Source: Neolewinella agarilytica
GTDB lineage: Bacteria > Bacteroidota > Bacteroidia > Chitinophagales > Saprospiraceae
Assembly: GCF_900110645.1 (NCBI RefSeq)
Contig: NZ_FOFB01000003.1
Location: 186,001-250,000 of the forward strand
Length of the DNA: 64,000 nucleotides
Direction: 5' to 3'
Positions 1,396 to 62,606 of this stretch are shown one piece after another. Both the position numbers and the translations under genes were made by a program. Under the pieces are notes generated by a model that saw nothing but the letters and a program-made list of their open reading frames with translations, made no database searches and had not been told where the DNA came from. The stretch's first letter is position 1. Every line of letters starts with the position of its first letter.

Positions 1396-1494
1396 GCGCG
1401 GACGCCGGTGCAATGTGAAACGCCAGGGAGCAAGGAGTCGCCCGTTGTTTCCCTTGCTGTTTTGTTCCCCAACTCTGCACCTGCGGTTGCGCCC
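1396..1494. repeat. Inverted pair of the dispersed TGCACCTGCG motif
   Basis: Two copies of the window-wide motif face each other in the gap between divergent genes. 1396-1412 is a minus-strand copy with one changed core base (TGCACCGGCGTCCGCGC). 1476-1494 is a plus-strand copy (TGCACCTGCGGTTGCGCCC). No gene lies between them. See the finding on the dispersed motif. Confidence 0.6.
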
Positions 1495-1563
1495 TCTCTT
1501 TCCCTATGATGTTTTGACTGGTTTTGCTGTACTTATTTACTGGAATTATCCCAAAAACACTAC

Positions 1564-4209
1564 ATGCGTTCTCTCTTACTTTCACTGGTTTTACTACCAG
1601 GATTGGCCTACAGCCAAATGCTGGAACTAGACACCAACTACGACGCCGAGCGCCTCGTAAAGGAAGTCTTTGCCTCCGGCGAGTGCGAAACGATCTTCAA
1701 CATCCGCCGCATCGGTGCAAACCCCGAGGGAATTGGTTTTTTCTCCGGGCCGGACACCATCGTGGGCTTCAACCGGGGCATTATTCTGTCAACGGGAAAA
1801 ATCACGGATGCCGCAGGCCCTAATTCCGACACTAACGTTGGTAGTGAGCTGGAAGGCCTTACGCCGGACCCTGACCTCAGCCTGGCTTCCACCGGGGATA
1901 TCTACGACCGCAGCGGGATAGAATTCGACTTTATCCCCCTGCAGCCTACGGTTACTTTTCGCTACGTTTTTGCTTCTGAGGAATACTGTGAGTTTGTTGA
2001 CGAGGCTTTCAACGATATTTTCGGGTTCTTTATCAGCGGACCCGGCATCAGCGGTCGTTTTGATAACGATGCCATTAACGTGGCCAGAGTACCGGGCACT
2101 AACCGCCCGGTGAGCATCAACAACGTGAACTACGCCCGGAACTCCAACTTTTATCTGGACAATGAATTTCCCACCGTCCGGCAAGTAGCCAGTTGTGGCG
2201 GCGGCAGCGGTACCGGGCCGCGTTTTGACCTGATTGAGTATGACGGGCAGACCGTCATTCTTACCGCAACCGTGGAGTTGGAGCTTTGCCAAACTTACCA
2301 CATCCGGCTGTTGGTCGGTGATGTGCAGGACAGCGACCTGGACTCGGCGGTATTTCTCGAAGCAGGCAGCTTCGACCTCGGGGGCAGTGTCAGCCTGGAA
2401 GGAGACGGTGATTCTACCGGAACGACCGTGGTTTATGAAGGCTGCGCACCCACCAATTTCCGGGTACAGCGCGGTGAAGACAGCAACCCGGCCCGACCGC
2501 AGACGATTGCTTACCGGATAGGAGCTAACTCCACGGCAGAAGAAGGGCTCGACTTTACCGCGGGCAGCGGTCAGGTCATAATCCCTGCAGGGGAGACCTT
2601 CGCCGAAATTCCGCTGGTTGCTTTTGCTGACGGAGTCACCGAAGGCCGGGAAAACGTCTGGCTCTACCTGGATATTCCCTGTGCCTGCTACACCGATTCC
2701 ATCGAGCTGTTTATTGACGAACCCGAGCCCCTGATTGTCGGGCTGGACGAAGCCTACTACTGCCCCAATGAAACGGCCGTTCTCAACCCGGAAGTAAGCG
2801 GCGGTGCGCCGCCCTACGACTATCGCTGGAGCTTTGGCAGCAGCGATCCGATGCCCGAGCTAACTCCGCCACTACCTACCTCCATCCAACTACGGGTAAC
2901 GGATGCCTGCGGACAGATGATTGACCGGTCTATCGCCACCTTCAGTAGCGTTCCTCCGGCGCTGAGTTTGCCTCCTCAGAATTTGATCGGTTGCCGGAAT
3001 GAGGCGCAGTCAATTACCGTTGATCTGCAGGGCAATGCGCCGATCACCCTAACCTATACCTTAAATAACGGGCCGGCTGAAACGATCAGCTTCGCCGATA
3101 ATGGCCGGCAGGCCTGGCCGATTGACCGGGGAGGGGACTACCGCATCGTCACAGTAGAAGATCGGGCCTGCCAAATTAGCGTAGACGAAAGCCTGCGCGC
3201 AGATTTTTTTCAGCCCGCCATTAACCCACGCCTCGTTAACCCCAGCTGTGCGAACTTAAACGACGGTAGCATCAGTGTTACTCATTTGCCAACCGTGCCT
3301 CCTTATCGATACGAATGGTCAGGGGTTACCCCTAACGGGCTAACGGTAGAGAACCTGCCCGCCGGAAATTATTCCCTGCGCGTGACGGACGCCCTGGGCT
3401 GCTGGGATGAGCGTAGCCTGAATCTTCGGGACCCGGATGCGTTAACGCCGGTTCTCATCAGTTGTACTGACGTTCGTCGCCCGCCGCTGATGCCTTCGGC
3501 GGGCGGTGGCCGCCCGCCCTATGAGTACAGTATCGATGGCATAAACTACTTCGGGGCCGAGGGCTTTGATCAACTGGAAGTAGGGCGTTACTATCCATTG
3601 CGCATCCGGGATGCATCGGGCTGTGCTATCGAACAGGACGATTTCTTCTGGCCGGAAGCGACGCGGAGACCGGTACGCCTGCCTACGTTTGTGCCCCAGG
3701 AACTGGCGGGTAGTGCTAAGGTGGAACCGGACTTACGGGTGCCGCCCGATCAGATAGCGGCGTACAGCTGGTATCCGGCAGCGTTATTTGACTGTGCTAC
3801 TTGTCCGACACCAACTGTAAGTGCACCCCGTAGCCAGACGATCAGTCTGGTCGTTGATAATATCTATGGTTGCCGGGACAGCCTGGTGACTTTTGTAGCC
3901 GTTGACGGCCGGGTGCCGGTCTACGTTCCAAATGTGTTTACCCCGAACGGAGATGGCACGAACGATTACGTGGCCATTTACGCCAGCCCGCTGCAAGTGG
4001 AAAGAATTCTGTCCTTTAAACTCTTCACCCGTTGGGGGGAGCAGGTGTGGGAAGATGAAGACTTTGCCCCCAACGATGGCCGCCGTGGGTGGGATGGTTA
4101 CCTGAATGGCCGCCTTGGCAGTGCGGCTGCTTACGTCTGGGTGGCGGAAGTCCGACTGACGACGGGAGAGCTGCAATCAGAATCCGGGACGGTGGTGCTG
4201 ATGCGATGA
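1564..4209 (+). CDS. Choice-of-anchor L surface protein with T9SS type B sorting domain
   Basis: 881 residues. A signal peptide (about residues 1-18, ending AYSQ) is followed by a choice-of-anchor L domain at about 35-240, with the typical stretches GFFSGPDTIVGFNRGIILSTG and FRYVFASEEYCEFV. A Calx-beta-like region lies at about 275-375. One SprB-type repeat lies at about 555-620 (NPSC, NDGSISV, LPAGNYSLRVTDALGC). The C-terminus (about 790-881) has the gliding-motility CHU_C signature: VPNVFTPNGDGTND, then FTRWGEQVWE, then GWDGYLNG. This places it as cargo exported by the type IX system and attached to or released from the cell surface. Binding target is unknown. Confidence 0.9.
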   Translation: MRSLLLSLVLLPGLAYSQMLELDTNYDAERLVKEVFASGECETIFNIRRIGANPEGIGFFSGPDTIVGFNRGIILSTGKITDAAGPNSDTNVGSELEGLTPDPDLSLASTGDIYDRSGIEFDFIPLQPTVTFRYVFASEEYCEFVDEAFNDIFGFFISGPGISGRFDNDAINVARVPGTNRPVSINNVNYARNSNFYLDNEFPTVRQVASCGGGSGTGPRFDLIEYDGQTVILTATVELELCQTYHIRLLVGDVQDSDLDSAVFLEAGSFDLGGSVSLEGDGDSTGTTVVYEGCAPTNFRVQRGEDSNPARPQTIAYRIGANSTAEEGLDFTAGSGQVIIPAGETFAEIPLVAFADGVTEGRENVWLYLDIPCACYTDSIELFIDEPEPLIVGLDEAYYCPNETAVLNPEVSGGAPPYDYRWSFGSSDPMPELTPPLPTSIQLRVTDACGQMIDRSIATFSSVPPALSLPPQNLIGCRNEAQSITVDLQGNAPITLTYTLNNGPAETISFADNGRQAWPIDRGGDYRIVTVEDRACQISVDESLRADFFQPAINPRLVNPSCANLNDGSISVTHLPTVPPYRYEWSGVTPNGLTVENLPAGNYSLRVTDALGCWDERSLNLRDPDALTPVLISCTDVRRPPLMPSAGGGRPPYEYSIDGINYFGAEGFDQLEVGRYYPLRIRDASGCAIEQDDFFWPEATRRPVRLPTFVPQELAGSAKVEPDLRVPPDQIAAYSWYPAALFDCATCPTPTVSAPRSQTISLVVDNIYGCRDSLVTFVAVDGRVPVYVPNVFTPNGDGTNDYVAIYASPLQVERILSFKLFTRWGEQVWEDEDFAPNDGRRGWDGYLNGRLGSAAAYVWVAEVRLTTGELQSESGTVVLMR

Positions 4210-4251
4210 GGAAAAGGCCATTCCTGGGAATTATCCTATTTTACCCACCCA

Positions 4252-5658: not shown

Positions 5659-5668
5659 TTCTCTCTTT

Positions 5669-10051: not shown

Positions 10052-13000
10052 CTACTCCACCCCCATCACATCCACCCACCCCAAATCCCCCGGCCGGTGG
10101 TGCCCCATGTCATCACTCACGACGCCACCTTCGCCCTTCCAGACGAGGTAGAGGTCAGCGGCCGTGCGCGTGCCGGCGGGTAGGGGTAGGCGCACCCGCT
10201 CCGTCTCGTTCCAACCTTCGGTCGGGGAGGTTTTGGTTTGGGCGAGGAGCTCACCTTCCGGACTGCCGTAGCGCAGCTCCAGCTCGCCGGGAGCGTTAGC
10301 GTGCAGGTCGAAGGTGAAGGCGCGTAGCCCGCTCAGGTCGATATCCGCCAGGCGCATCCAGCCGCCGGGGCGGAAGCTGACGACTTTGAAGGCCATATTT
10401 TGCCCGCTGCCGGGCACGGCAGCGCGGTAAAGACCGTCGTGGGCGTGCTCGGCTTCCAGGCGGGTGGGGCGCAGCACTACGGTCCGTTGGCCGGTCAGCG
10501 GCGGCGTGCTTTTGCCGCCGTTGTCGCGGTAGCTGGCCGCCAGCACGTAGCTGCCGCTGCCGTCGCCCGGGCGCACCGCGCCCGCCAGCGGCAGGCCGCC
10601 GTTGTTCAGGCTCAGGATGTAGCCAACCATCGTCTCGGCGTCAGACTGGCTCAGGGCCGGGTGGCCGCTCATCAGCCGTTCGCCCCAGTTACCGTTGCCA
10701 CCTTTGATGACCTTGCCGGCCAGCATCGTGATGTTCGCTGGCGTGTCTTCATAGCGTTCGGCGACGGCCAGGTAGGCCGGGCCTACGTTCTCCGCCCGTT
10801 CCTTATGGCAGGTGTAGCAATCACTGCCTTCGATCAGAGAGGCACCTGCGGAGTAGGCCAAGTCGCCACTCGGCAGCTGGGCTTCGCCCCGCCGCAGGCC
10901 GTCGGCCAGTTGGGGATCTTCGACCCAGGTGGCGTTGACCAACACTTTCGACTCGTCAAGCTTACCGGCAGCCCGGTCTTCCGGGTCGCTAACGGAGGCG
11001 GTATAGGTCAGCTGATTCCGGCCCGGCAGCAGGAAGGATCGGTTGCCGTTCAGGGCCAGCGTCAGCTCCGGGCGGGCGTTGCCCACCGCCAGTACCGTGC
11101 TGGATTCGGAGGTGCTACCCGCCAGGTCGCTCACTTCCAGGCGGAGAGAATGGCTGCCCGCCTGGGTAATCATCGGGGAGTACTCCATCGTTTCCGCCAT
11201 CAGCTTACCGTCCAGAAACCAGCGGTAACTCAGGCTGTCCTCCGGGTCGGGGTCGCTGCTGCCCGCAGCGGAGAGGGTAGGGCGGAAGGGGATGCCGCCG
11301 GCCGTTTCGTCGGCCAGCAAATTCGCCACCGGCGGACGGTTTTTAGCCGAATAGCTAATCCGAATCAGCCGCGCGTCCGGGTTGTTCAGGAAGTAATCGT
11401 TGCCGTATTCGAGCAGGTAGATGGAGCCGTCCGGGCCGAACTTGAAGTCGATCGGCTTCGAGATGGTCAGCTCCGGCAGGAAGTCTTCCATCTGCACGAT
11501 CTCCTGCCGGGCGGAGTCGAGCGTAACCACCTTGATCCAACTCCGCGCCCACTCGTAGATGAACCACTTGCCGTGGTAATATTCCGGCAGGGCGCTGTTG
11601 GTGATCGGCACAAGGTTATCTTTATCAAAAAACGGACCGGCCATCGCCGAGCGGCTGCCCTGACCGAGGACGGGGAACTCCTCACTCGGTCCGTAAGGAT
11701 ACCAGATAAAGGCTGGTCGCGCTGGTGGCAAATTGCGGGCACCGTAATTGTTTGGTGAGGCGTTCACGGGAGCATCGGGGTTGAAGGGCGCGCCGACTTC
11801 GTCCGTCGCAAAGTCCCGCTCATTGAAGGCATAGTTGTCGCCCACGAAATAGGGCCAGCCGAAATTGCCGGCCGTTCGTGCCTGGTTCCACTCATCGTAG
11901 CTCTCGGGGCCGTACTTGCCGGGCTGACCGACGTCGGGGCCCACGTCTCCCCAGTAGAGATAATTCGTCCACGGATCGATGGCAATGCGGAAGGGATTGC
12001 GGCAGCCCATGGTGTAAATTTCGGGGCGGCCGCCTTCGCCGTCCGCGAAGAGATTGCCTTCGGGGATTTCGTAAGTGCCATCGGGCATCGGCCGGATGCG
12101 TAGAATTTTTCCGCGCAGGTCGGCGGTGTTTCCGCTCGACTTCTGGGCGTCGAAGGGGCCACGGCCGGGGCGCTCATCGAGTGGGCTGTAGCCGTCGCTT
12201 TCCTTACTGCTGGTGTTGTCTCCGGTGCTGAGATAGAGCAGTCCGTTACGGTCGAATTCCAGTCCACCGCCGCTGTGGCAACACTTGTCGCGCTGTACGG
12301 TAACGCGCAGCATCACGACTTCACTGGCGGTGTCGATCACGCCGTTTTTGTAGTCGAAGCGACTCAGCAGTTGGTCCAGTGAATCACAGGGCGCGGGCGT
12401 GTAGTAGAGGTAAATCCAGTCGTTATCCTGCCCGTAGCCGGGGTCGAGTGCCAGGCCGTGCAGCCCGTCTTCGTAGTTGCCTTCAATGCAAACATCAAAA
12501 TCGTGTACAAGCCGGGTGCTTCCCTTGCTCCAGAGCTTCATTTTGCCGCGGCGTTCCAGGAACAGGACGCTGCCGTTGGGCAGCACTTCCATTTCCATGG
12601 GCTCGTAGATGTTGTCGTCCAGTACCTGCATTTGAAAGCGGTCGTCTTTCGGGGCGGAGAGGGGCAATTGGGGCGCGGACGCAGGTGCAGGGGGAAGCTC
12701 GGCGGTAAAAAAAGTCTGCATCTCCGGGCTTTTGTCCGCTACGGCGAGCACCTGCCCGTTGCCCAGCGTGGAGCTTGGTGGCGCAGCGGAGCGAGCGCTT
12801 TCGTACCAGGCCCAGGCGTAGGGTACCGCCGGGCGCTCATCAATGATGAGCAGTCGGCCACCGCTCATCACGAATCGCTCGACCGATGTCCGGCGGTGTG
12901 CCGTCAGGCTGTCATAGTCCGGCCGCAGCAGGGTGAGGTTACGGTATTGAAAGAGGCTGTCTTCCTCCAGCATTCGGTAAGCCGCTACGTTGGAGGGCTT

Positions 13001-13888: not shown

Positions 13889-16800
13889 ATGTTCTGCAAC
13901 TTTACATCAGGTATTCTACTCATTCTATTCTCCTTAGTGTCTGTTTCGCTCTCCGCGCAGGAGCAGTTGATCTGGCCGGGTGATGTTAATGATAACGGAC
14001 AGGTTAACGGCGCGGATATGCTCTACTGGGCCCGCGCGTACGGTGTCCGTGGCTTCGAGCGACCCGACGCAACTACCGACTGGGTCGGGCAAAAGATGGG
14101 TACGCCCTGGGACCTCAAATTCCCTGACGAACGAAACCTGGCCTACGCCGATATGGATGGTGACGGTCGCATCTCTGGTTTCGACCTCCCCGTGCTCTTT
14201 CAAAACCAACACCGCACCCGCGTCAGCGCCCAAACGGATGACGCCTACGAACTTCCCGATACCTCGGCGAACTACGATGCGAAACTTCTCCTGGTCCCCG
14301 CTGGTGTCGAACTCACCGCAACGGGTACTTTCCTCAATTTCGAGGTGCAGCTTACCGGCCGGGATTCGAGCTTCGACCGCTTCCATGGCATCAGCTTTTA
14401 CGCTTCTTTCTCCGATGGACTTTTCAAAGACTATTCCTACGGAGAAGAAACGAGCGCCGAAGCTGCCCTGAGCGGCGGGAAAGCCATGCTGAACTGGTTG
14501 ACCGTAGACAGTAGCGCACAAATCATCAATTATACCCTCACGGCCATCCACCACCGCGCCCTGCGCGCTGATGGCATCATCGGTCGAGTGGCGATTCCGT
14601 TCTCTCCTGGCTTTAATATTGACCAGCTGGACACTGCCGCCGTGGTTATTGACAGCATCGTGCTGCATGACCCCTCCATGAATTCCTACCGGGTGGCGAC
14701 TGATCCCATTGTGCTGTCCGGAGATACGGGTTGTTCGCTCACCGTCAGCCCCGTCTGCGGAAACGACGGCCGCACCTACCTGAACAGTTGTTTTGCGGAG
14801 GCCGCCGGTATTACGGTTTACACCGCCGGTGCCTGCTGGAACCCCGGTCTGGATCCCTTCGCCATGAATCCGGACGCTAACTGTCCTTCTTCCTATGAGC
14901 CGGTCTGTGGTTTCAATGGCGTTACCTATGCCAACGCCTGTGCTGCCGAGGCTGCCGGAGTTACCAATTACAGTGTTGGCGTCTGTAACCCCAGCGACCT
15001 TTCCTGTTACGATCCCACGCTGATTGCCATCAGCAGTGGTACGAGCGTTAACCAGGACAACGGAATTATCAGTTTTTACTGCGACAATGCCAGCGGCCCG
15101 GTTTGTGGCTGTGACGGCCAGCAATACCCCAGCGCCTGTGCAGCGGAAGCTTCCGGTGTCCGGAGCTACGTCAGTGGTGGTTGTGGTGACGGCTGTGTGG
15201 ATCCCACTATGATCGGGATAGCGGAAGACTGTGGAACTACTCCAGACTATGTCTGTGGTTGTAACGACGAGACTTACATCAACGCCTGTTTCGCTGAGGC
15301 GGCCGGTGTGATGAACTACACCTCCGGGCCCTGTAACGGTGCTTCCGGCTGGTGTAATGAGGCAACGGTAATTAGCTGTGGCGATTACCTGCCGAACGAA
15401 ACGACCATTGGTGCCGGTAACCAGATTACGGATTACCCCGGTGCCACCAGCGTTCGTATGCAGGGTACGGACCGGGTATACGTTTTTGAAAAGACCTCCG
15501 CAGGTGACCTGCAGATTGGCCTTGAGATCATGACTCCCGGCCTGAACATGGATATCTTCCTGCTCACCGGAGACTGCAGTAATTACCAGGTCGTGGGCCA
15601 CAGTACTACTTCTAACTCTCAAACGAATAATGAGGGTATCGTGCTGGAAGATGCGCCTAACGGTACCTACTACATCATTGTGGACGCACCTTATGCTGGT
15701 CCTGGTGGCGATTACCGCCTGGAACTCAGCTGTGGTTACCTCGATTGTAGCGAGCGTGTTCCCCTGAGCTGTGGCGTTACTTATAATGGTACCAACGCTG
15801 GCGGTACGGACGATGTGAGTACGTACACTTGCGGGCCTCAGCTCAACGTAGAAAATAACGGTCCGGAGATCGTCCACACTTTTACCATCACGGAAGAAGG
15901 CCCGGTCAGCATCCACCTGACTGGAATGACGGCCAACCTGGAGCTCTTCCTGCTCAGCGAATGTAGCCGGCGGTCTTGCCTCACGTTCAGCCAGAACTCC
16001 GGCACCAATAATGAAAGAATTGATATTGCCTGGTTGCCAGCGGGTACCTATTATGTGGTAGTTGACGGGTACAATGGTGCCATCTCCAACTACTCCCTCC
16101 GGGTAGACTGTGAAGCCAGCTGTGCGCTGGAAACACAAATCCTGAGCCAGTCCGGTACGGCCTGCGGGCAAAGCGGTGGCTCCATCCAGCTCAGCGTTAC
16201 GGGTGGCAGCCCGACTTATACGGCTCACTACGTCGGGCCGGTTTGTCGCACGGCGACCAGCTACGATGGCCACTTTACTTTCGCTAACCTCCCTCCCGGA
16301 ACGTACACGACCTGGATCGAAGACGCTAACGGCTGTGAAACGGAACTCGTCTTCACCATCACCGCCGGAGACGGCGGCCTGGATGCCACCTTTACTCCCA
16401 TCGACGCAGGTTGTGGTGAGGAAGGCAGTATTCGGGTCAACATGACCAACCCGGGAACGGCTCCTTACACCGTTTACCTGAGTGGCCGGATCAATACTAC
16501 GCTTACGACCAGCCGGACCAGCTTCGGCATTTCCCCGCTGCCTACAGGCCAGTATACGGTGGCCATCGCGGATGCTTCCGGTTGTAGCGTATCCAGAACA
16601 CTGACCGTTGGTCAGTCCAACGGCAACCTCGACGTAACGGTCAGCAGCGAACCCGTTGGCTGTGACGGTAGCCTCGGCGAAATCGTGGTCGATACCGATA
16701 GTGGTACGCTTCCCTACACTGTTCGTCTGGCAACTGGCCCGGTCACGGGTGCTCAGGTGGTAAACGGCTATGATTTCCGGATTCACGATCTGCCCGCCGG

Positions 16801-23758: not shown

Positions 23759-23777
23759 GGGCGCGGTCGCAGGTGCA
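23759..23777 (-). repeat. Dispersed TGCACCTGCG motif, intergenic
   Basis: Minus-strand TGCACCTGCGACCGCGCCC in the gap between convergent genes, so no protein constraint applies here. Confidence 0.6.
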
Positions 23778-27374: not shown

Positions 27375-28285
27375 AATTTCTCTTACGCCTTGCTCTTTTG
27401 TTCGCCTTACCGGCAGGACTGTTGCTGAACACGGCAGCAGTGGATTTCAGCGGAGGGGAATACCTTGCTCCTTTGACCTCCACGGCACCTGCGTCCGCGC
27501 CTGCTCCCTCAGCATTTCATCCGCCGATGGCTCTGCCCGCTGATGTGTGTGAAACGGAAAACAACGTCTTTCAGGCAGGCGAAAAAATCGTTTACAAACT
27601 TTACTACAATTGGAACTTCGTTTGGCTCGCCGCCGGTGAAGTCACCTTTCTCGTACACGATCTGCCGAACCAATATCACGTGATGGTGAGGGGACGCACT
27701 TATGAAAGCTACGAGTGGTTTTACAGCGTTCGGGATAACTACGAAAGCTACCTCGACAAAAAAACGCTCTTGCCCAAAATTCACATTAAGGACATTCAGG
27801 AAGGCGGCTACACCCGCTATGACCGGACGACTTTTTACCAGGACAAAGGCCGGGCCGTCAGTGCCCGCGGTAAAACCCGTGATGATCTCAAAGAAAAAGA
27901 AATTCCCCTGGAAGAATGTATGCACGATCTGATTTCAATCGTCTACTACGCCCGGAATCTTGACTATGAAGAGATGACGGTTGACCAGAAAATCCCCATT
28001 AAAATTCTGATGGACCAGGAAATCTATCCGCTCTCTCTAAAGTATCTCGGCCCGGAAGAAGATACCAAAGTAAAGGGTGTTGGTCGCTTCAGGACGCAGA
28101 AATTCAGCCCGCAGCTCATCGCCGGAGACGTGTTTAAAGAAGGGGATGAAATGAAAATTTACGTGACCGACGACGAGAATAAAATTCCCGTCCTGATCGA
28201 ATCTCCGGTAAGCGTTGGCAGCGTTAAGGCGGTGCTGAAGAGCTATAAGGGGCTGAAGTATCCGATGACGGCGCAGGTGGAGTAG
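27371..28285 (+). CDS. DUF3108 domain protein
   Basis: 304 residues overlapping the preceding stop by four bases (ATGA). A signal peptide covers about residues 1-22. A low-complexity Ala/Pro/Ser linker at about 36-52 contains a copy of the dispersed DNA motif. The DUF3108 domain follows from about 60: FQAGEKIVYKLYYNWNFVWLAAGEVTF, RTYESYEWFYSVRDNYESYLDKKTLLP, GVGRFRTQKF. Family members are periplasmic or outer-membrane-facing beta-rich proteins of unknown role. Pairing with a membrane flippase-like protein suggests an envelope lipid task, by inference only. Confidence 0.85.
   Translation: MKFLLRLALLFALPAGLLLNTAAVDFSGGEYLAPLTSTAPASAPAPSAFHPPMALPADVCETENNVFQAGEKIVYKLYYNWNFVWLAAGEVTFLVHDLPNQYHVMVRGRTYESYEWFYSVRDNYESYLDKKTLLPKIHIKDIQEGGYTRYDRTTFYQDKGRAVSARGKTRDDLKEKEIPLEECMHDLISIVYYARNLDYEEMTVDQKIPIKILMDQEIYPLSLKYLGPEEDTKVKGVGRFRTQKFSPQLIAGDVFKEGDEMKIYVTDDENKIPVLIESPVSVGSVKAVLKSYKGLKYPMTAQVE
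27484..27501 (+). repeat. Dispersed TGCACCTGCG motif, in the DUF3108 gene
   Basis: GGCACCTGCGTCCGCGCC, read as APASAP in the N-terminal linker. The protein reading is the same as at 12671. Confidence 0.6.
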
Positions 28286-37237: not shown

Positions 37238-37256
37238 GGGCGCGGACGCAGGTGCC
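37238..37256 (-). repeat. Dispersed TGCACCTGCG motif, intergenic
   Basis: Minus-strand GGCACCTGCGTCCGCGCCC, ten bases after the pseudogene stop and 29 bases from the exporter gene end. Confidence 0.6.
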
Positions 37257-43184: not shown

Positions 43185-45632
43185 CTACCGCCGAACCTCC
43201 GCCCCCAACTGCTTAGTCAAACTGCCTTCAATAGACCGCATAACCTTATCCACCTGTTTATCATTGAGCGTCTGCTCGTCGCTCTCGAGTTGGAAGCTGA
43301 CAGCGTAGCTTTTCTTGCCGGCACCGAGTTGCTCTTCGTTTTCGTAGACGTCGAAGAGGTTGATATCAGTAAGGAGTTTCTTTTCGGCTTTACGGGCCAG
43401 GCGCTCCACGTCGGCGAAGGTTATGTGCTTGTCCACGATCAGGGCCAGGTCCCGGCGCAAGCTCGGGAACTTGCTCGGGGTTTTGACCTGAACGGGCTTG
43501 CGGGGCAGTACACGCAGGACATTGTCCCAGTTGATGTCCGCAAAGAACACGTCAGATTTTACCTGGCGCGCACGCAGGTGCAATGGATGGACGGCGCCAA
43601 AATCAGCCAGGACCATCGGGCCTTTGTGGTAGCGGAGGCCGTAGCTAAAACCTTCAGCGGGAGCTTCAGCAGTGCGATAATTATCAATTCCGAGCCGCTG
43701 GAACACGAGCTCAACGGCTGCTTTGAGGGTATAGAAACCCGCTTCGTTTTTTCCTTTGGGGCTTGGGTGCCAGCTTTCCGGCTGCCGCTGACCACTGAGG
43801 GTCAGGGTCAGGTGGTTAACCTCTTTGTATTTCTCTCCATCGAGGTGATAAGAGCGGCCGAACTCAAAAAGGCGCAGGTCCTGCTGCTGACGGTTATGGT
43901 TGTGGGCTACGGCTTCCAGCGCACTCATCAGCATCCCGGGCCGCATCACATCGAGGTGAACGTTGCTGGTGTTGTTGATGTAGACGAGGCCTTCGAGCTG
44001 TTTGCCGTCGGAGACATCGCCGTAGTGGCGGCTCTCGTCGAGGGAGAGGGCCATCATTTCGTTGAAGCCGTTGGCGGCCAGGAGGTCGCCGGTGAGTTCC
44101 CGAACGTAGTTCGGGTCCGGACTGGGAGCCACGGTCATCGCCGTGGTTATCATCTGTGGAATCGGAACATTATCGAAGCCGTAGATGCGAAGAATTTCTT
44201 CGATGACGTCGATCTCCCGGAGTACCTCACTTTTGTTGGTGGGTACCGCGACTACGAAGCTATCCGCTCCGGAGGAGACGATCTCCATTCCCATGCTTTT
44301 CAAGATGCTCTGCACCTGCGTCCGCGCCAGATCTGCGCCAATGACATCAACCACCCGCTGGTCACGAACGGTGATCTCGAGCGGCTGAATCGGGTTGGGG
44401 TAGAGGTCAAGTAACTGACTGGTCACTTTTCCTCCGGCCAGCTCCTGCAGCAGGAGTGCGGCCCGCTTCAGGGCATAGACCGTAATGTTGGGGTCGCTGC
44501 CTTTCTCAAAAACCCGGGCGGCATCCGTCCGCAGTGTATGGCGCATGCTGCTGCGCCGGGTCGTGCCCGCCTCAAAGTGGGCAGCTTCCAGGAAAATGCT
44601 GGTCGTGCTGTCACTTACCCCACTGTTGGCTCCGCCGAAAACGCCGGCGATACACATGGGTTGGTGATTGCCGTCGCAGATCATCAAATCGTCGGCGCTG
44701 AGTTGGCGTTCTACCTCGTCGAGGCTCAGGAAGGTAGTGCCTTCCGCTAGTTTTTCTACGTGAATTTCTTTGCCGGCTACCTTGTCCAGATCAAAGGCAT
44801 GTAGCGGCTGCCCAAGCTCGTGCAGAACGAAGTTAGTGATGTCGACCACGTTATTGATCGGGCGAACGCCAATCGCCAGCAGCTGGGTACGCAGCCATTC
44901 GGGGCTCGGGGCTACGGTCAGGTTCTCAATGGTGAGGCCCGCGTAGCGCGGGGCCTGGCTGAGGTCCTGAACGTTTACTTTAATAGCCGGCTGGCTGCCT
45001 TCCTTAAAGGCGCTTACGTCCGGGCGCTTCACGGTTACTTCTTTGCCGTGATTAACGTTGAGGGCGGCCGCTAAATCGTAGGCAACCCCCAGGTGGTTGG
45101 TGGCATCAGAGCGGTTGGGGGTAAGACCGATCTCGTAAACGTAATCTTCCTTGAGGTCAAAGACTTCCGCGGCGGGGGTACCGGGCGCATAGGCTTTATC
45201 CAACACAATGATGCCGTCATGGCTTTCTCCCAGACCTAACTCATCTTCGGCGCAAAGCATCCCGGCGGAGACTTCTCCCCGGATTTTTCCCTTCTTGATT
45301 TTAAAGGGCTCTCCGCTCATGGGGTGGAGCATTGCTCCAACGGTGGCAACAATTACGTGCTGACCGGCAGCTACGTTAGGCGCACCGCAGACGATGGAAA
45401 CGGGCTCTCCCGCTCCGGTGTCTACACTGGTGAGGGACAGGCGGTCGGCACCGGGGTGCTTCCCGCATTCCAGAACGTGACCTACCACTACACCGGCAAG
45501 CCCGCCGGGGATGGACTCTACTTTCTCCATGCCTTCTACTTCCAGGCCAGTGCCCGTAAGTACTTCACCGATGGCGGCTGGCTCCAGATCGATATCAAGA
45601 TACTGGCGCAGCCAGTTGAGGGATACTTTCAT
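43185..45632 (-). CDS. pheT: Phenylalanine--tRNA ligase beta subunit
   Basis: 815 residues, full length. The N-terminal half has a tRNA-binding OB domain at about 40-150 (VVVGHVLECGKHPGADRLSLTSVD). B3/B4 editing domain follows (RYAGLTIENLTVAPSPEWLRTQLLAIGVRPINNVVDITNF). B5 domain contains LARTQVQSILKSMGMEI. The catalytic-like core and the C-terminal anticodon-binding FDX-ACB domain (KFPSLRRDLALIVDKHITFADVE) follow. It pairs with PheS, which is not in the window, to charge tRNA-Phe. Two copies of the dispersed DNA motif lie inside this essential gene. Confidence 0.97.
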   Translation of the reverse strand: MKVSLNWLRQYLDIDLEPAAIGEVLTGTGLEVEGMEKVESIPGGLAGVVVGHVLECGKHPGADRLSLTSVDTGAGEPVSIVCGAPNVAAGQHVIVATVGAMLHPMSGEPFKIKKGKIRGEVSAGMLCAEDELGLGESHDGIIVLDKAYAPGTPAAEVFDLKEDYVYEIGLTPNRSDATNHLGVAYDLAAALNVNHGKEVTVKRPDVSAFKEGSQPAIKVNVQDLSQAPRYAGLTIENLTVAPSPEWLRTQLLAIGVRPINNVVDITNFVLHELGQPLHAFDLDKVAGKEIHVEKLAEGTTFLSLDEVERQLSADDLMICDGNHQPMCIAGVFGGANSGVSDSTTSIFLEAAHFEAGTTRRSSMRHTLRTDAARVFEKGSDPNITVYALKRAALLLQELAGGKVTSQLLDLYPNPIQPLEITVRDQRVVDVIGADLARTQVQSILKSMGMEIVSSGADSFVVAVPTNKSEVLREIDVIEEILRIYGFDNVPIPQMITTAMTVAPSPDPNYVRELTGDLLAANGFNEMMALSLDESRHYGDVSDGKQLEGLVYINNTSNVHLDVMRPGMLMSALEAVAHNHNRQQQDLRLFEFGRSYHLDGEKYKEVNHLTLTLSGQRQPESWHPSPKGKNEAGFYTLKAAVELVFQRLGIDNYRTAEAPAEGFSYGLRYHKGPMVLADFGAVHPLHLRARQVKSDVFFADINWDNVLRVLPRKPVQVKTPSKFPSLRRDLALIVDKHITFADVERLARKAEKKLLTDINLFDVYENEEQLGAGKKSYAVSFQLESDEQTLNDKQVDKVMRSIEGSLTKQLGAEVRR
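43565..43582 (-). repeat. Dispersed TGCACCTGCG motif, in pheT
   Basis: Minus-strand TGCACCTGCGTGCGCGCC, read in the frame giving HLRARQ. Confidence 0.6.
44311..44328 (+). repeat. Dispersed TGCACCTGCG motif, in pheT (opposite strand)
   Basis: TGCACCTGCGTCCGCGCC, the exact consensus, on the strand opposite to the gene; read in pheT as ARTQVQ. Confidence 0.65.
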
Positions 45633-48283: not shown

Positions 48284-49549
48284 ATGATTGCTGCCAATTT
48301 TACCACCGAAGTACGGGCCGAACTGGCCAACCTCCGCGCCGCCGCCGCGGGGCTGAACCGATTACCCGCCGGGCGATTAAACGATTGTTTGACGACCCTG
48401 GCTGAACTCACGGAGAAAAATATCCTCCCGCTGCTCGGGGCCAACGCTAAAGATCTGGCCCGGATGGATCCGGAGAACCCGAAGTACGATCGGCTGCTGC
48501 TCAACGAAGAGCGTTTGCTGGCCATCGCCGCGGATCTGCGGCGGGTGGCGGCTTTGCCCAGCCCGCTGGACCAAACGCTGGAGCAATCCACCCTGGCCAA
48601 TGGCCTGGAATTGCGCCGGGTGAGCGTCCCCATCGGAGTAGTGGGCATTGTGTTTGAAAGCCGGCCCAATGTAACCTTCGACGTGTTCGCCCTCAACCTG
48701 AAGGCCGGTAATGCCTCCGCTCTTAAGGGGAGCCGGGACGCCCGGGACAGTAACCTGGCCATCAAAAAGCTCATCGACGAGGCCCTCTCCGCCTGTGGGC
48801 TACCCGCTGCCTGCTACCTCGCTCCGGCGGAGCGGGAAGCACTGAAGCCCATCCTGGAAGCGGACGGACTGGTGGACGTCATCATCCCCCGCGGCAGCCA
48901 GGGGTTGATTGACTTCGTGCGGGCAAATGCCTCCGTGCCGGTTATTGAGACGGGAGCGGGGATTTGCCACACCTACGTAGATCAGGAGGCAGAGCTGGAG
49001 TGGGCCAAAACCATCATTACGAATGCCAAGAGCCGGAGGGTCAGTGTTTGTAATTCCCTTGATTGTATACTTATACATCGCACCTGCGCCAGCGCCCTGC
49101 CGCAGCTGTTAGAAGAACTGGGCCAGCAGCACCGCTGTGAAGTCTTCGCTGACGAAGAAGCCTATGCCTCTCTTGACGGGCATTATCCCGAAGTATTACT
49201 TCACCGGGCTACTGAAGAAAGCTTCGGAACGGAGTTCCTCAGCATGAAGTTATCCATAAAAGTTGTGGACGATATCAGCGAAGCTATCGCCCACGTAGAG
49301 CGCTACGGTAGCCGGCACAGTGAAGCCATCGTTAGTAATAACGAGGCCAACATCAGACGGTACCTGAGAGAAATCGATGCCGCCGTCGTCTACGCCAACG
49401 CCAGCACGGCTTTCACCGATGGTGGGCAGTTCGAGCTCGGCGCTGAAATTGGTATCAGCACCCAAAAGCTGCACGCCCGTGGACCAATGGGGCTGGTCGC
49501 ACTCACCAGTTATAAGTGGCTGGTGGAGGGACAGGGACAGGTGAGGTAG
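48284..49549 (+). CDS. proA: Glutamate-5-semialdehyde dehydrogenase
   Basis: 421 residues, full length. The aldehyde-dehydrogenase fold has the ProA-type segments VPIGVVGIVFESRPNVTFDV, ALKGSRDARDSN and VDVIIPRGSQGLIDFV, and the catalytic Cys in RRVSVCNSLDC. It reduces gamma-glutamyl phosphate to glutamate semialdehyde in proline synthesis. The partner kinase gene proB is not adjacent. The stop is followed by a tract of short repeats. Confidence 0.95.
   Translation: MIAANFTTEVRAELANLRAAAAGLNRLPAGRLNDCLTTLAELTEKNILPLLGANAKDLARMDPENPKYDRLLLNEERLLAIAADLRRVAALPSPLDQTLEQSTLANGLELRRVSVPIGVVGIVFESRPNVTFDVFALNLKAGNASALKGSRDARDSNLAIKKLIDEALSACGLPAACYLAPAEREALKPILEADGLVDVIIPRGSQGLIDFVRANASVPVIETGAGICHTYVDQEAELEWAKTIITNAKSRRVSVCNSLDCILIHRTCASALPQLLEELGQQHRCEVFADEEAYASLDGHYPEVLLHRATEESFGTEFLSMKLSIKVVDDISEAIAHVERYGSRHSEAIVSNNEANIRRYLREIDAAVVYANASTAFTDGGQFELGAEIGISTQKLHARGPMGLVALTSYKWLVEGQGQVR
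49079..49096 (+). repeat. Dispersed TGCACCTGCG motif, in proA
   Basis: CGCACCTGCGCCAGCGCC, a variant copy read as RTCASA, a frame different from the 12671 and 44311 copies. Confidence 0.45.
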
Positions 49550-51101: not shown

Positions 51102-51120
51102 GGGCGCAGCCGCAGGTGCA
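51102..51120 (-). repeat. Dispersed TGCACCTGCG motif, intergenic
   Basis: Minus-strand TGCACCTGCGGCTGCGCCC in the gap between the reductase start and the next gene's end. Confidence 0.6.
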
Positions 51121-55588: not shown

Positions 55589-57943
55589 ATGCCTTTTACC
55601 CGCCATCGTTACCCTTTGCTGGTAACTACCCTGCTGTTTTTACTCTTCCCCTGCACCTGCATTCGTGCCCAAAACCCCTCAGGTGGGCAGACAGTAAAAG
55701 GAGTGGTTGTTGATAAAGAGTCTTTACTTCCCCTCATTGCCGCATCCATCTATGTTGTCGGGTCAGAACCTCCTCTGGGCGCAACGACAGACGAGAACGG
55801 TCGCTTCCGGATTGAAAATGTCCCACTTGGCCGGCGCAGCCTGATCATCTCCAGTATTGGTTATGAAGATGGCGTAGTGCAGGAAATTGTGGTTGGTAGT
55901 GGTAAGGAGGTTGACCTGAAAGTACAGCTCACAGAATCTCTGATTGACCTTAGTACAATAGAAGTAGTCACTACCCGCCTGAATGGTACCCCAAACGACG
56001 AAATGGCTACTGTTTCGGCACAATCATTCAGTGTGGAACAGACCAAACGCTATGCTGCGGCCATCAATGACCCGGCAAGAATGGCCTTGTCTTTCGCAGG
56101 CGTTGCTTCCGGTGATGATGAGTCTAATGAAATTATTATCCGGGGTAATAGTCCCCGGGGACTGCTTTGGCGAATGGAAGGCATTGAAATACCCAACCCT
56201 AATCACTTCAGTGAAGAGGGCGCCAGTGGTGGAGGCATCAGCGCGCTCAGCGTCAACGTACTGGCCAATAGCGACTTCTATACCGGTGCCTTTCCGGCAC
56301 AGTACGGTAATGCCAGTTCCGGCGTATTTGATCTGCGTTTGCGAGAGGGAAATAGCGACAAACGGGAGTATGCCTTTCAAGCGGGTGTTCTGGGGATTGA
56401 TGTAGCAGCTGAAGGGCCAATCGGGCCGAAGGGAGGTGCTTCTTATCTGGCGAACTATCGTTATTCTACCCTGGCTGTTCTGGAGAGTTTTGGGGTGACC
56501 ATAACCGGAGAGGGGAGTAGGACGACTTTCCAGGACGCTACTTTTAAGCTTCATTTTCCGAATAAGAAAGGCGGCTATTTGTCCGTATGGGGGCTGGGAG
56601 GCATCAGTGGTGACCGGTTTCAACTGGAGGGAGACCCGGAAACATCAAGCTTCCAATCTAATCGGGGCGTTGTGGGGGTGAACTATTTTCACCGGCTGAG
56701 TGAAAAGAGCTATCTCGAAAGCATCGTCAGTTACTCCGCTACGCGCAGTGACGACGATTATAATAGTGGGCGGGGCTTTGTGTTTGATGATCGCTTCGTG
56801 AACCGGGCGCTGAGAGGAAGTCTGCGCTACAACCAAAAGGTAAACGCCCGGCAAACCTTCCAGGCAGGAATAATCGGTCATCAGCTTGGCTATGAATTGC
56901 TGGAAGAAATCGTGAGTAACGGAGAGCGAACGACTAATTTATCTCAGGATGGAAACACCTATTTCTTACAGGGCTACGCGCAGTATAAATACCGACTTGG
57001 AACAAACGTGACGGCTACCGGCGGAATTCATGCCAGCTACTTTGGGCTGGAGGGGCAACAGAGCGTGGAGCCACGTCTCGGGCTACGATGGAATTATAAG
57101 CCAGGCCATTCTGTTAATTTCGGGGCGGGCCTGCATAGTCGACTGGAAGCGCTCTCCGTCTATCTGGCTGAGGTGGAACAGCCCGACGGTAGCAGGCAAC
57201 GTCTTAACCGGGGATTACCCCTTCAGCAGGCCGCTCACCTGGTGGTGGGGCATAATTGGAGGTTCCACAAAAACTGGCGCTGGAAGGTGGAAGCTTACTA
57301 TCAGGAGATTAGTAAAGTCGCAATTGCAACGGCAGAGGTTACGGATCCGTATGGTGTGACGGAGTCATCCATCAATTTCTCTGATGGCTTTGAGACTGCG
57401 GAGCTTGCCCCGGACGGAACGGGGCGCAACTTTGGTGTCGAAAGCACCGTAGAGCGATTCTTTACCGGCGGGTGGTACGCGCTGGCGGCGACCTCTCTTT
57501 TTCGTTCGCGCTATACTCCCAGGGATGGAATTGAGCGACCAACCCGGTTTGCGTCAGACTTTGTGCAGACTGTACTGGCGGGTAAGGAATGGACCATCGG
57601 TAAGCAAAAGATCAACACCATTGGCCTGAACCTGCGGCTGAGTTGGTCCGGCAATAACCGCGAAGCGCCCATCGATCTGGCAGCGTCCCGGGCCGCAGGG
57701 AATACCGTCAGAGACTGGGCCAATAACTATGGATACAGTCTGCCAAATTACTTCCGCTTTGATACGGGCATCCGTTATCGGAAAAACAAAGGGAGTCGGA
57801 GTTGGGTACTCTCGTTGGATATTCAGAATGTGACGAACAGAGACAATGTCTTCCGGCAATTTTACAACCCCCGGCTTGATCAAGTCAGCTCCCTGACTCA
57901 ACTGGGGTTGATCCCGATCATTAACTACCGGCTGGAGTTTTAG
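55589..57943 (+). CDS. TonB-dependent receptor with CarboxypepD_reg-like domain
   Basis: 784 residues. Signal peptide to about residue 26 (CIRAQ), then a carboxypeptidase-regulatory-like domain at about 33-115 (VKGVVVDKESLLPLIAASIYVVG, GRFRIENVPLGRRSLIISSIGYE). The plug follows (PARMALSFAGVASGDDESNEIIIRGNSPRGLLWRMEGIEIPNPNHF), then a beta-barrel ending in an aromatic residue (NYRLEF). It imports a nutrient or acts with a partner lipoprotein; no SusD-like gene is adjacent, so glycan uptake is not indicated. A weaker copy of the dispersed DNA motif lies at 55652-55670, inside the signal-peptide region. Confidence 0.92.
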   Translation: MPFTRHRYPLLVTTLLFLLFPCTCIRAQNPSGGQTVKGVVVDKESLLPLIAASIYVVGSEPPLGATTDENGRFRIENVPLGRRSLIISSIGYEDGVVQEIVVGSGKEVDLKVQLTESLIDLSTIEVVTTRLNGTPNDEMATVSAQSFSVEQTKRYAAAINDPARMALSFAGVASGDDESNEIIIRGNSPRGLLWRMEGIEIPNPNHFSEEGASGGGISALSVNVLANSDFYTGAFPAQYGNASSGVFDLRLREGNSDKREYAFQAGVLGIDVAAEGPIGPKGGASYLANYRYSTLAVLESFGVTITGEGSRTTFQDATFKLHFPNKKGGYLSVWGLGGISGDRFQLEGDPETSSFQSNRGVVGVNYFHRLSEKSYLESIVSYSATRSDDDYNSGRGFVFDDRFVNRALRGSLRYNQKVNARQTFQAGIIGHQLGYELLEEIVSNGERTTNLSQDGNTYFLQGYAQYKYRLGTNVTATGGIHASYFGLEGQQSVEPRLGLRWNYKPGHSVNFGAGLHSRLEALSVYLAEVEQPDGSRQRLNRGLPLQQAAHLVVGHNWRFHKNWRWKVEAYYQEISKVAIATAEVTDPYGVTESSINFSDGFETAELAPDGTGRNFGVESTVERFFTGGWYALAATSLFRSRYTPRDGIERPTRFASDFVQTVLAGKEWTIGKQKINTIGLNLRLSWSGNNREAPIDLAASRAAGNTVRDWANNYGYSLPNYFRFDTGIRYRKNKGSRSWVLSLDIQNVTNRDNVFRQFYNPRLDQVSSLTQLGLIPIINYRLEF
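55652..55670 (+). repeat. Dispersed TGCACCTGCG motif (weak copy), in the TonB receptor gene
   Basis: TGCACCTGCATTCGTGCCC, matching the first nine bases and diverging after; read as CTCIRA in the signal peptide. Confidence 0.4.
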
Positions 57944-59293: not shown

Positions 59294-59321
59294 GGAAATT
59301 AAGGCAAAGGAGACTTGATGG

Positions 59322-60206: not shown

Positions 60207-60256
60207 AACATCTTTATTTATGGTTCGATGATTGGACGGTACAAAAGCTCAGGCGT

Positions 60257-61456
60257 TTAATCGAAGGCAAATAATTTTTTCATCTTGTCGAAAATAGCAG
60301 TGTTCTCAAAGATGCCGGAAAAATGCTCTGACCCCGGCCCGTAAGCAAAGACAGGAATAAGGTCTGCCGTATGGTAATCAGAAGTAAAAGCCCCGTCGAT
60401 ATTGTTGAGGGAAGAACCGTTTTGGATGGCGTAACCGCCGGTCTCATGATCCGCCGTTACGATTACCAGGGTCTCTCCATCAGCTTTGGCAAACTTAAGA
60501 ACTTCACCAATTGCCTCGTTGAATTCAAGCATCTCCGAAATGATATATTCGCTGTCATTAGCATGACCTCCCCAGTCAATCTGTGCACCCTCGATCATCA
60601 GGAAGAAGCCCTTGTTATTACGGTCGCGCTTGTCCAGAAAATCCGGAGCAATTTTGACAGCAGGCAGCAGGTAGTCTCTGCCCTGAGCAACGGGAAGGGG
60701 CTCTCCGTCAGCGGTGAGGTATGCATAGTTTCTGGCGGGATCCGGCCGAAGGTCCTTAGCGTCCTTTTCCACAAAATTGTCAACTACGTAGTTACGCTTC
60801 TCCAGCTCTTTGGTCAGTTTTCGGTCGTCGCTTTTGCGCCGGTCAAAGAATTTAGCCCCACCACCAATTAAAAGGTCAACTTCCGTTTTAAGAAAATCGG
60901 TAGCAATCTCTTCATAGTTTTTCCGCTGGCGGTTGTGGGCAACGAAGCTGGCGGGAGTAGCATGAACGATTGAACAGGTGGCAACCAGTCCGGTGGGCAA
61001 ACCGGCCGCTTCTGCCAACTCAAGAATGGTGACTACCGGCATCGTATCCATTCCTACACCAACAGCACCATTATAGGTCTTTACGCCAGCACTGAAGGCC
61101 GTCGCTCCAGCAGCGGAGTCCGTGATCAGGTTGTCTCCGCTGTAGGACTTATGCAGGCCAACTACCGGAAACTGCTCCAGGTTCAACTTATTATTGTTGC
61201 TGTACATCCCGGCGGAAATTTGGGTCACTCCCATGCCATCACCGATCATCAGGATGATGTTTTTCGGCCTGCGGGCTTTTGCGGCCGTTTCAACCTGCGG
61301 AGTATTGGGCGCAACCGCAGGTGCAGTGTCCGGCTCAGCGGGCAGTGTGGATGCATCCGTTCGGCCGGCTGCCGGCAATGTGTCCTGCGGAACGGGAGGG
61401 CAGGCGGTCAACAGCAGGCAAAAAACGGACAGTAGCGGGAAGACTCTTTTATTCAT
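60257..61456 (-). CDS. Alkaline phosphatase (lipoprotein)
   Basis: 399 residues from the ATG at 61456, which gives a lipoprotein signal (MNKRVFPLLSVFCLLLTAC). A longer start at 61549 is rejected because it buries this signal. The metal site and nucleophile are IILMIGDGMG and NLITDSAAGATAF (Ser). Other ligands are in VHATPASFVAHN, FLMIEGAQIDWGGHAND and IVTADHETGGYA. A linker at about 38-50 contains the dispersed motif (APAVAP). It hydrolyses phosphomonoesters at the cell surface or periplasm. Confidence 0.93.
   Translation of the reverse strand: MNKRVFPLLSVFCLLLTACPPVPQDTLPAAGRTDASTLPAEPDTAPAVAPNTPQVETAAKARRPKNIILMIGDGMGVTQISAGMYSNNNKLNLEQFPVVGLHKSYSGDNLITDSAAGATAFSAGVKTYNGAVGVGMDTMPVVTILELAEAAGLPTGLVATCSIVHATPASFVAHNRQRKNYEEIATDFLKTEVDLLIGGGAKFFDRRKSDDRKLTKELEKRNYVVDNFVEKDAKDLRPDPARNYAYLTADGEPLPVAQGRDYLLPAVKIAPDFLDKRDRNNKGFFLMIEGAQIDWGGHANDSEYIISEMLEFNEAIGEVLKFAKADGETLVIVTADHETGGYAIQNGSSLNNIDGAFTSDYHTADLIPVFAYGPGSEHFSGIFENTAIFDKMKKLFAFD
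61307..61325 (-). repeat. Dispersed TGCACCTGCG motif, in the alkaline phosphatase gene
   Basis: Minus-strand TGCACCTGCGGTTGCGCCC, the same bases as the copy at 1476, read as APAVAPN in a linker. Confidence 0.6.
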
Positions 61457-61508
61457 GGCGGCAAGATACGGAGGGTGCATCCTTATTAAGGTTAAGGGAA
61501 GGTAAACT

Positions 61509-62606
61509 TCAGCAGCATAGCCGGTACCGGTGCCCGGGTAATGCTGCAATGATTCCTTTCATTTCCAACATCAGTAAGGTGCCGGCCAGCTTGGCTGGCG
61601 GCTCCCGAAGGAGTTGGTGGAGCTCGTCAATTTCTACCCCCTCACGGTCCCGTAAATGGGCAACGACCGCCTGCTCCGCCGGTTCAAGATCATCAAAAAG
61701 GCGGCGCTGCCGCCCGGGGGCAACGCCCTTCCAGCCGAGGAGGTCGACGACGTCCTGCCCCGCCTCAATCAGATGGGCCTTACCATTTTTGACGAGCAGG
61801 TTACAACCTTCCGTCAGGGGGTCTCCGCCCCGTCCGGGGCAGGCGCCAACATGGCGACCCAACTCATGAGCCATCCGGGCTGTAATCATGGAACCGCCTC
61901 TGGCGGCAGATTCTACCACAACGGTTATGTCAGACAGCATAGCGACCACCCGGTTGCGGGCCGGAAAGTGATCCTTCTCCGGCTTCATCCAAAAAGGATA
62001 GGCGGTAAGCACACCTCCGCCACCCTCCGCCAGTTGCCGGGCCGTTTTGGCGTGTGCTGAGGGGTAGATGTGGCCAAAACCACTGCCCATTACCGCCAGG
62101 GTAGGTAAGCCCGCTTGTAAGGAGCGGCGGTGAGCGTATATGTCTACTCCGTAGGCAAGGCCGCTAACGATCAGGGGGTTAAAATCCACCATCGGGTCAA
62201 TCAGACGATCTACTTGCCGGGCACCGGCTGAGCTCATTTCCCGGGTGCCGACAATGCCGACAGTACGAGGGTTGTTCAAATCAGCGGCACCAGCGTAGTA
62301 AAGAATGGGCTGAGCGCCGGTGAAGGCCTTTAAGCGGCTGGGAAAATCATCATCAAGACAGCAGAGGATGCGAATGTCGTAGCGCTCGGCGTGCTCCAGA
62401 ATGGCCTGGGCTTCCCGCTCGTGTCGCTCGCCGGCGAAGCTGGCGGCCGTTCGTTCGGCAATGCCGTCCACCGCACACAGCTCCTGCGTTCGCGCCCGGA
62501 AAACCTCTTCGGCTGTTCCAAAATGATGAATTAATGCCCGAAACAATTTCGGCCCGATATTGGGCACACGGCTAAGGGCTACCCGGGAGAATGTATCCGG
62601 ATGCAT
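61509..62606 (-). CDS. dprA: DNA-processing protein DprA
   Basis: 365 residues from the ATG at 62606 (MHPDTFSRVALSRVPNIGPKLFRAL). The region upstream in frame lacks family similarity. The Rossmann-like SMF domain is clear: VGTREMSSAGARQVDRL, IVSGLAYGVDIYAHRRSL, LAVMGSGFGHIYPSAHAKTARQLAEGGGG, and ARNRVVAMLSDITVVVESAARGGSMITARMAHELGR. A winged-helix C-terminus follows (REGVEIDELHQLLREPPAKLAGTLLMLEMKGII). It loads RecA onto incoming ssDNA in natural transformation. This makes the DNA-uptake hypothesis for the dispersed motif worth testing. Confidence 0.95.
   Translation of the reverse strand: MHPDTFSRVALSRVPNIGPKLFRALIHHFGTAEEVFRARTQELCAVDGIAERTAASFAGERHEREAQAILEHAERYDIRILCCLDDDFPSRLKAFTGAQPILYYAGAADLNNPRTVGIVGTREMSSAGARQVDRLIDPMVDFNPLIVSGLAYGVDIYAHRRSLQAGLPTLAVMGSGFGHIYPSAHAKTARQLAEGGGGVLTAYPFWMKPEKDHFPARNRVVAMLSDITVVVESAARGGSMITARMAHELGRHVGACPGRGGDPLTEGCNLLVKNGKAHLIEAGQDVVDLLGWKGVAPGRQRRLFDDLEPAEQAVVAHLRDREGVEIDELHQLLREPPAKLAGTLLMLEMKGIIAALPGHRYRLCC
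62479..62497 (+). repeat. Dispersed TGCACCTGCG motif variant, in dprA
   Basis: AGCTCCTGCGTTCGCGCCC on the strand opposite to the gene, read in dprA as RARTQE. Confidence 0.4.

Follow-up and report, generated by a model that had tools for sequence, protein, structure and literature searches.

A dispersed element in the window

The stretch considered here (the window) comprises 64,000 nucleotides of a contig from Neolewinella agarilytica (NZ_FOFB01000003.1, positions 186,001 to 250,000). The genome from which it comes, called G000 below, has 6.2 Mb and belongs to the Neolewinella/Lewinella group of the Bacteroidota; a comparison of pheT with named relatives also places it there (N. persica, 86 percent). 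The window holds, among other genes, pheT and dprA, the latter assigned by Pfam in agreement with a preliminary description of this DNA. Within and between its genes lie copies of a short DNA element, and this element is the subject of the present report.

The preliminary description had counted about 15 copies of an 18-bp motif. A position matrix recovers all of these on the strands then given and adds two, one of them weak, so that 17 sites in the window score 10 or more (Table 1). A search of the window against Rfam at gathering thresholds gave no match.

Table 1. Copies of the element in the window, with matrix scores (ORF, open reading frame)
Position	Strand	Score	Location and form	Same place in congeners
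1395..1411	-	22.4	Intergenic, left half of a head-to-head pair (82 bp); GCACCGGCG variant	
1477..1493	+	29.9	Right half of the head-to-head pair, ~70 bp upstream of ORF at 1564	
12672..12688	-	38.2	ORF 10052-13159(-), GSDH/CBM6 protein (Pfam)	Copy in G014
14214..14230	+	27.5	ORF 13889-21742(+); added by the matrix	
21308..21324	-	12.8	ORF 13889-21742(+); weak, 4-base spacer; added by the matrix	Stronger copy in G014 (21.6)
23760..23776	-	32.5	Intergenic	
27485..27501	+	29.8	ORF 27371-28285(+), DUF3108	Copy in G014 (34.2) at roughly the same position; alignment gappy
31705..31721	-	24.8	ORF 31037-33346(-), CotH; longer spacer	Also in G004, G002, G014
33270..33286	+	32.5	ORF 31037-33346(-); GCACCCGCG variant	Also in G004
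37239..37255	-	33.0	Intergenic	
43565..43581	-	32.2	pheT, 43185-45632(-); read as LHLRARQ	See text
44312..44328	+	30.5	pheT, antisense; read as ARTQVQ	See text
49080..49096	+	26.3	ORF 48284-49549(+), Aldedh family	See text
51103..51119	-	28.9	Intergenic	
55653..55669	+	25.9	Signal-peptide-coding stretch (FPCTCIRAQ, translation)	
61308..61324	-	29.3	5' part of ORF 60257-61549(-), alkaline phosphatase	Missing in G005; alignment gappy
62480..62496	+	23.4	dprA, 61509-62723(-); GCTCCTGCG variant	Copy in G013, G005, G004, G002, G014

Abundance in the window and the genome

In the window, TGCACCTGCG occurs 24 times with up to one mismatch; 100 dinucleotide shuffles gave 4.5 occurrences on average and never more than 10. 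Exact copies number 9 for TGCACCTGCG and 14 for GCACCTGCG, the most frequent 9-mer there.

The matrix was refined on 464 kb of G000, made up of the window and 20 further stretches of 20 kb each, with a site defined by a score of at least 10. A count against a Markov model, of the kind that the preliminary description had proposed for the whole genome, finds 145 sites in this sample (about one copy per 3.2 kb) and 5 in order-3 Markov sequence. The matrix was, of course, trained on the stretches that it then scanned, and exact-pattern counts are therefore the independent measure. Here, the control is the same pattern read in reverse order. Over the whole genome, the 17-base pattern GCACCTGCGNNNGCGCC (GCACCTGCG-N3-GCGCC) has 820 exact copies (387 on the plus strand, 433 on the minus strand), while its reversed control has 1; for TGCACCTGCG the numbers are 1098 and 7. 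The exact 10-mer is present 99 times in the 464-kb sample, where 1.1 copies are expected.

Anatomy of the element

The 18-bp word is itself real, but it belongs to a longer element. This spans about 45 bp, is asymmetric, and has three parts joined by flexible spacers: a TGCTY box, YTGCACCTGCG, and GCGCC. The middle part is the best conserved. It is followed by mostly three (up to five) free bases, then by GCGCC, and then usually by C. The second half had earlier been written as N-N-GCGCC; the GCGCC box is present as described, but the spacer before it varies in length. Among 111 sites with exact GCACCTGCG, the spacer has 3 bases in 73, 4 in 11 and 5 in 7, and 20 sites have no GCGCC within 13 nt. 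Upstream of the core lies a pyrimidine stretch and then the TGCTC or TGCTT box, which begins 18-23 bases before GCACC. Over those six positions the box occurs 60 times in the 145 sites; other positions have 0-3 occurrences each.

Placement, orientation and spacing

Genic and intergenic classes were assigned with a home-made gene-calling script. By these, 75 of the 145 sites are in genes, 67 are intergenic and 3 are at edges; random positions would divide 83, 15 and 2 percent. This is an intergenic enrichment of about 3-fold, as had been suspected from the window. Inside genes, all frames are used on both strands (17/17/13 on the strand of the gene, 13/3/12 on the opposite strand), which also agrees with what was first noticed.

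Around gene starts (-50 to +150), 33 sites are on the same strand as the gene and 9 on the opposite strand. Long intergenic regions contain sites in 12 of 18 cases when divergent, 7 of 31 when tandem, and 3 of 15 when convergent. Both the same-strand bias and the excess in divergent regions would suit a regulatory element, promoter-proximal or in the 5' untranslated region, that selection on expression has spread. However, half of the sites are genic and use either strand and every frame, and the density just past stops (1.1-1.3 per kb) is similar to the density before starts (1.0-1.3 per kb). Further, part of the sense bias is explained by signal-peptide codons, which several N-terminal sites occupy (for example, at window 55589-55700 and in other sampled stretches). 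We consider a regulatory origin improbable.

These same sites leave a mark on exported proteins. With the motif lying in their codons, the signal peptides end in CTCVRAQ or CTSVSAQ, and a DNA signal thus shapes the protein.

On a larger scale, the two strands are balanced. Four sampled stretches of G000, each of 100-124 kb, carry 20/19, 14/14, 23/20 and 19/16 sites on their two strands, and no strand polarity was seen across them. This bears on the notion of a Chi-like recombination hotspot for enzymes of the RecBCD/AddAB class. The high frequency of the element, in genes and between them, is what such a hotspot would show. The three-part structure with flexible spacers is not, and known Chi sites are far shorter than an element of about 45 bp; nor was the polarity expected of Chi sites relative to replication seen over stretches of 100-124 kb. 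A Chi-like role has, in our view, only a slender chance of being correct.

Spacing and pairing were compared with 2000 simulations that preserved the numbers of genic and intergenic sites. Gaps above 400 bp vary less in length than simulated ones (coefficient of variation 0.65 versus 0.89), with 1 of the 2000 simulations equally low. Gaps below 400 bp make up 19 of the 141 between neighbouring sites. Head-to-head pairs, in which the 5' ends face each other, number 10 within 110 bp in the 464-kb sample (1.5 simulated), and 8 of them fall at 74-85 bp (0.2 simulated); no simulation reached either count.

Exact head-to-head pairs whose halves are separated by 50-75 bases were also counted in G000 and its 20 congeners. 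Such pairs are abundant in G005 (27), G000 (24) and G009 (13) and scarce in G014 (3) and G013 (1), although the numbers of single elements are similar. Elsewhere, there are 9 in G018, 8 in G004, 6 in G007, 4 in G002, 1 in G019, and none in the other 11 of the 21 genomes.

Origin and conservation of individual copies

The gene pheT is essential and carries two copies, at 43565 and 44312, as the preliminary description had noted. The alignment is gap-free at both places, with 19 genomes covering the first and 20 covering the second. At 43565, GCACCTGCG stands at the same place in seven congeners (G014, G004, G007, G002, G015, G005 and G018), five of which have the full 17-mer; in G013 and G019 it is missing, again with no gap. 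Where the copy encodes LHLRARQ, distant congeners have, for example, ARLEQAD. The original argument that protein need cannot account for the motif is supported. Third codon positions at 43565 are invariant in 4 of 5 cases in five genomes, against 21.5 percent. At 44312, the core is retained in eight genomes, and its third codon positions are invariant in 5 of 5 cases against 11.5 percent gene-wide in the same eight, a level matched by 4 of 810 windows; these eight were selected for carrying the site, and G015, their neighbour on the tree, has a broken copy.

Outside pheT, the copy at 49080 is present in G002 and G014. It is missing in G004, G015 and G005 with no net change in length, and in G013, where the aligned stretch is 3 bases shorter. 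The alignments at 27485, at 61308, and at a site present only in the relative G019 are gappy and decide nothing. A clean comparison is possible at three sites, the two in pheT and that at 49080, and all three arose by substitution, with no insertion. Copies are gained and lost among relatives, a point that the preliminary description had proposed to check in orthologues. The pheT sites also differ by clade: they stand at columns 1307 and 2123, at column 2106 (on the opposite strand in the distant congeners G016, G012 and G020), and, in a dialect of G010 that is described below, at column 1379.

A tiny mobile repeat was among the earliest candidates. REP (repetitive extragenic palindromic) elements are enriched between genes and form inverted pairs. 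The Neolewinella element does both, and its head-to-head pair, exact in 24 places in G000, might be the unit of a repeat akin to REP or to a MITE (miniature inverted-repeat transposable element). Y1 transposase genes, which such a REP/RAYT (REP-associated tyrosine transposase) system would use, are found in 20 of the 21 genomes. However, half of the sites are genic, the cleanly comparable coding copies arose without insertion, and counts of Y1 genes are unrelated to counts of the motif (G018 has 675 motifs and no Y1 match; G007 has 480 and one weak match). The fraction of short gaps means that most sites are solitary, which weakens the case again. Mobility is very improbable overall, and for the cleanly compared coding copies it is rejected.

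Distribution and dialects

Exact patterns were searched in 60 genomes: G000, 20 congeners, 16 genomes of other genera in the same family, and 23 further genomes of the same order. The 17-base pattern is present in G000 and in 19 of the 20 congeners (3 to 1176 copies). Outside the genus, it appears in 1 of the 16 same-family genomes (3 copies) and in 1 of the 23 others (1 copy); none of these 39 genomes from other genera rises above background.

Among congeners the exact-pattern count thus ranges from 0 to 1176, and dialect change is part of the reason. In two of them, even the 10-base core has a count close to that of the control (G001, 28 versus 15; G010, 11 versus 11), and both carry dialects with the same layout. 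The dialect of G010 reads CA-YTGCTACTTTG, a short spacer, and AGYCAAAA. Its core TTGCTACTTTG has 826 exact copies in G010 (control 4), and none of the other 59 genomes has more than 9. Over 120 kb of G010, intergenic sites number 15 out of 38 although 88 percent of the bases are called coding. The dialect of G001 reads TTTA-CCTGCGC-YCC-GNCGCC, and CCTGCGCYCCGNCGC has 599 exact copies there (control 1), 269 in G006, 57 in G000, and, outside the genus, none in 38 of the 39 genomes and one in the remaining genome. Less drastic variation is also seen. The GCACCCGCG form is favoured in G019, G012 and G016, and G003, where the canonical 10-mer is weakly enriched (61 versus 15), has a possible form of its own, CTCCCGCG-N-CCCGCC.

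The dialects also speak to the proposal that the motif is a word of a restriction-modification system or an orphan methylase, AarI-like or HIP1-like (HIP1, highly iterated palindrome 1). CACCTGC does lie within the element. Restriction sites, however, are normally avoided and not enriched; the element is asymmetric with spacers that flex, and the G010 dialect lacks CACCTGC in its 826 copies. HIP1 is a genome-wide enriched word in one cyanobacterial lineage (PMC4390886). It is a palindrome, GCGATCGC, linked to methyltransferases, whereas the three-part consensus here is asymmetric, much longer, and not a short palindrome. Asymmetry and the G010 dialect lead us to reject both the AarI and the HIP1 suggestions, to which we give scarcely any probability.

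A self-DNA recognition signal?

One layout, written in different letters in different congeners, suggests a trans-acting reader whose specificity drifts. What might that reader be? We favour the view that the element works like an uptake signal, by which cells would recognise self-DNA and which comes in dialects, and we put the probability of this at about 0.55. A receptor would recognise the three-part asymmetric element when DNA from the cell's own species or a close relative is taken up. Copies would be born by mutation, and would spread and be kept because the fragments that carry them are more often taken up and recombined, a combination of molecular drive and recombination. As the specificity of the receptor drifted, whole genomes would move to a new dialect. 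Mutation with uptake bias has been advanced to explain the spread of uptake sequences (PMC1939737). The likeness to uptake sequences lies in copies that are born by substitution, conserved at the level of DNA, evenly spaced, present on both strands, and divided into dialects by clade. A DNA-uptake-like signal was already among the candidates offered for the window, and it is the best of them for a genome-wide signal held in the DNA.

Both that a reader exists and that it is a receptor for DNA uptake, not some other DNA-binding protein, are inferred, and several observations weigh against the uptake interpretation. First, the effect of the element on uptake is putative. Second, ComEC (in 21 of the 21 genomes) and DprA (encoded in the window) fit uptake, but they are widespread and prove nothing. 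Third, for the type IV pilus ATPase (PF00437), 20 of the 21 genomes have partial, weak matches of at most 25.5 bits; 11 of the 21 barely pass the cut-off of 24.9, and the strongest match, the sole matched protein checked, is an AAA+ protein of the ClpB/ClpC type. Fourth, near-forms in the 464-kb sample are just mildly enriched: forms with one mismatch are about 2-fold up (64 versus 34 expected) and those with two are not raised (420 versus 449). Last, uptake alone does not predict the pairs, the excess in divergent regions, or the sense bias at gene starts, which may reflect a chromosome-organising protein or an additional role.

That protein is the chief rival, since it accounts for most of the same facts. 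Here, the copies would be chromosome-wide sites of a nucleoid, segregation or replication-linked protein, their even spacing selected and their dialects produced as the protein drifts. Intergenic preference and head-to-head pairs fit as well, as does a long asymmetric site with boxes about two helical turns apart. Less easily fitted are the balance of strands over 100-124 kb, the presence of sites in conserved protein genes together with amino acid changes, and an exact-pattern copy number that differs so widely between congeners, in part through dialect change. The candidate protein is, moreover, hypothetical. We judge this reading unlikely, though it is the alternative to be taken most seriously. 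Were it correct, the protein would have an unusual asymmetric 45-bp site that undergoes very fast concerted evolution.

With depletion in mobile DNA in mind, proteins were scanned in three of the five largest gaps between sites; all ten have ordinary domains, and no prophage or plasmid was seen in this sample. Contigs C1-C18 lack the 17-mer, but the ten measured are 1.2-6.1 kb long, and at such lengths its lack is uninformative. Viral contigs gave at least 120 matching stretches; among the 80 listed, there are 1-2 matches each, which is compatible with chance.

Relation to known uptake signals

Dialect-bearing uptake signals are a feature of the Neisseriaceae and the Pasteurellaceae, both with pilus-type uptake. 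The DNA uptake sequences (DUS) of the Neisseriaceae, read by the receptor ComP, are very numerous both inside and outside coding sequence and fall into dialects along phylogenetic lines; in one species, many of the copies form dyad pairs (PMC3630211). Abundant coding and non-coding copies, dialects, and paired copies recur in Neolewinella, as does extreme overrepresentation on both strands. The Neolewinella element differs in sequence and length, and in having three parts and flexible spacers. A CTG core is reported for all DUS dialects (PMC3630211); it is missing from the TTGCTACTTTG dialect of G010.

Uptake signal sequences (USS) of the Pasteurellaceae have a short, strong core, AAGTGCGGT, flanked by weaker tracts at distances of roughly one and two turns of the helix. 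The element is similarly overrepresented and built of a core with flanking boxes; however, its sequence is unrelated and the boxes are not AT tracts.

As for machinery, a type IV pilus with a pilin receptor was not found through PF00437, pilins and secretins not having been searched. The element therefore does not qualify as a DUS or a USS by sequence nor, within the range of these tests, by machinery. With no convincing type IV pilus ATPase, any uptake receptor would be of another kind; if uptake is involved, the receptor probably does not sit on a known kind of type IV pilus.

Closer in phylogeny is Riemerella columbina, also of the Bacteroidota, which is reported to take up its own DNA preferentially. 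Its putative signals are 10-mers such as AAAAATAAAA, whose function the source leaves open, and in the available part of that source no signal like the Neolewinella element appears (PMC7965970). A literature search, with preprints and most subscription papers outside its scope, showed no report of such a motif in the genus or the phylum among the papers listed.

It is tempting to go further, and to propose that a Bacteroidota genus is an independent further lineage that evolved a dialect-bearing self-DNA signal, read by a receptor other than a type IV pilin, and in which a change of dialect raises a barrier to gene exchange between species. We hold this tentatively, at a little under even odds. 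At least three dialects within one Bacteroidota genus would be a natural experiment on the joint change of a signal and its reader, and the signal would offer a handle for finding an outer-membrane DNA receptor in this phylum.

Other repeats

A k-mer search of pheT loci from other genera (about 15-22 kb each, and so of low power) found one clear word, GCCGAAAGGC, unrelated in sequence, in the locus L046 of an uncultured Saprospiraceae genome. Here, TTTGCCGAAAGGCA or its reverse is dispersed over six places in 16 kb (0.04 expected), for example, at 2005, 4106, 5661, 7031, 10893 and 13200; these may be terminators or another genome-wide word.

Two further repeats are unrelated to the element. 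At window 40484-40577, about 90 bp are flanked by the inverted repeat GGGCACAAATCAAA / TTTGGTTTGTGCCC. More than 30 places in G014 match its first 45 bp (about 84-90 percent), and the unit looks MITE-like. Runs of the heptamer TGCAACC occur on both strands of G000, in contig C19 (about 81200-81370 and 107130-107290) and in contig C20 (11182-11270). In addition, the congener G001 has clustered CTGGAGCTCC repeats at L103:3736-5508, many with a period of about 93 bp, which probably belong to a repetitive gene.

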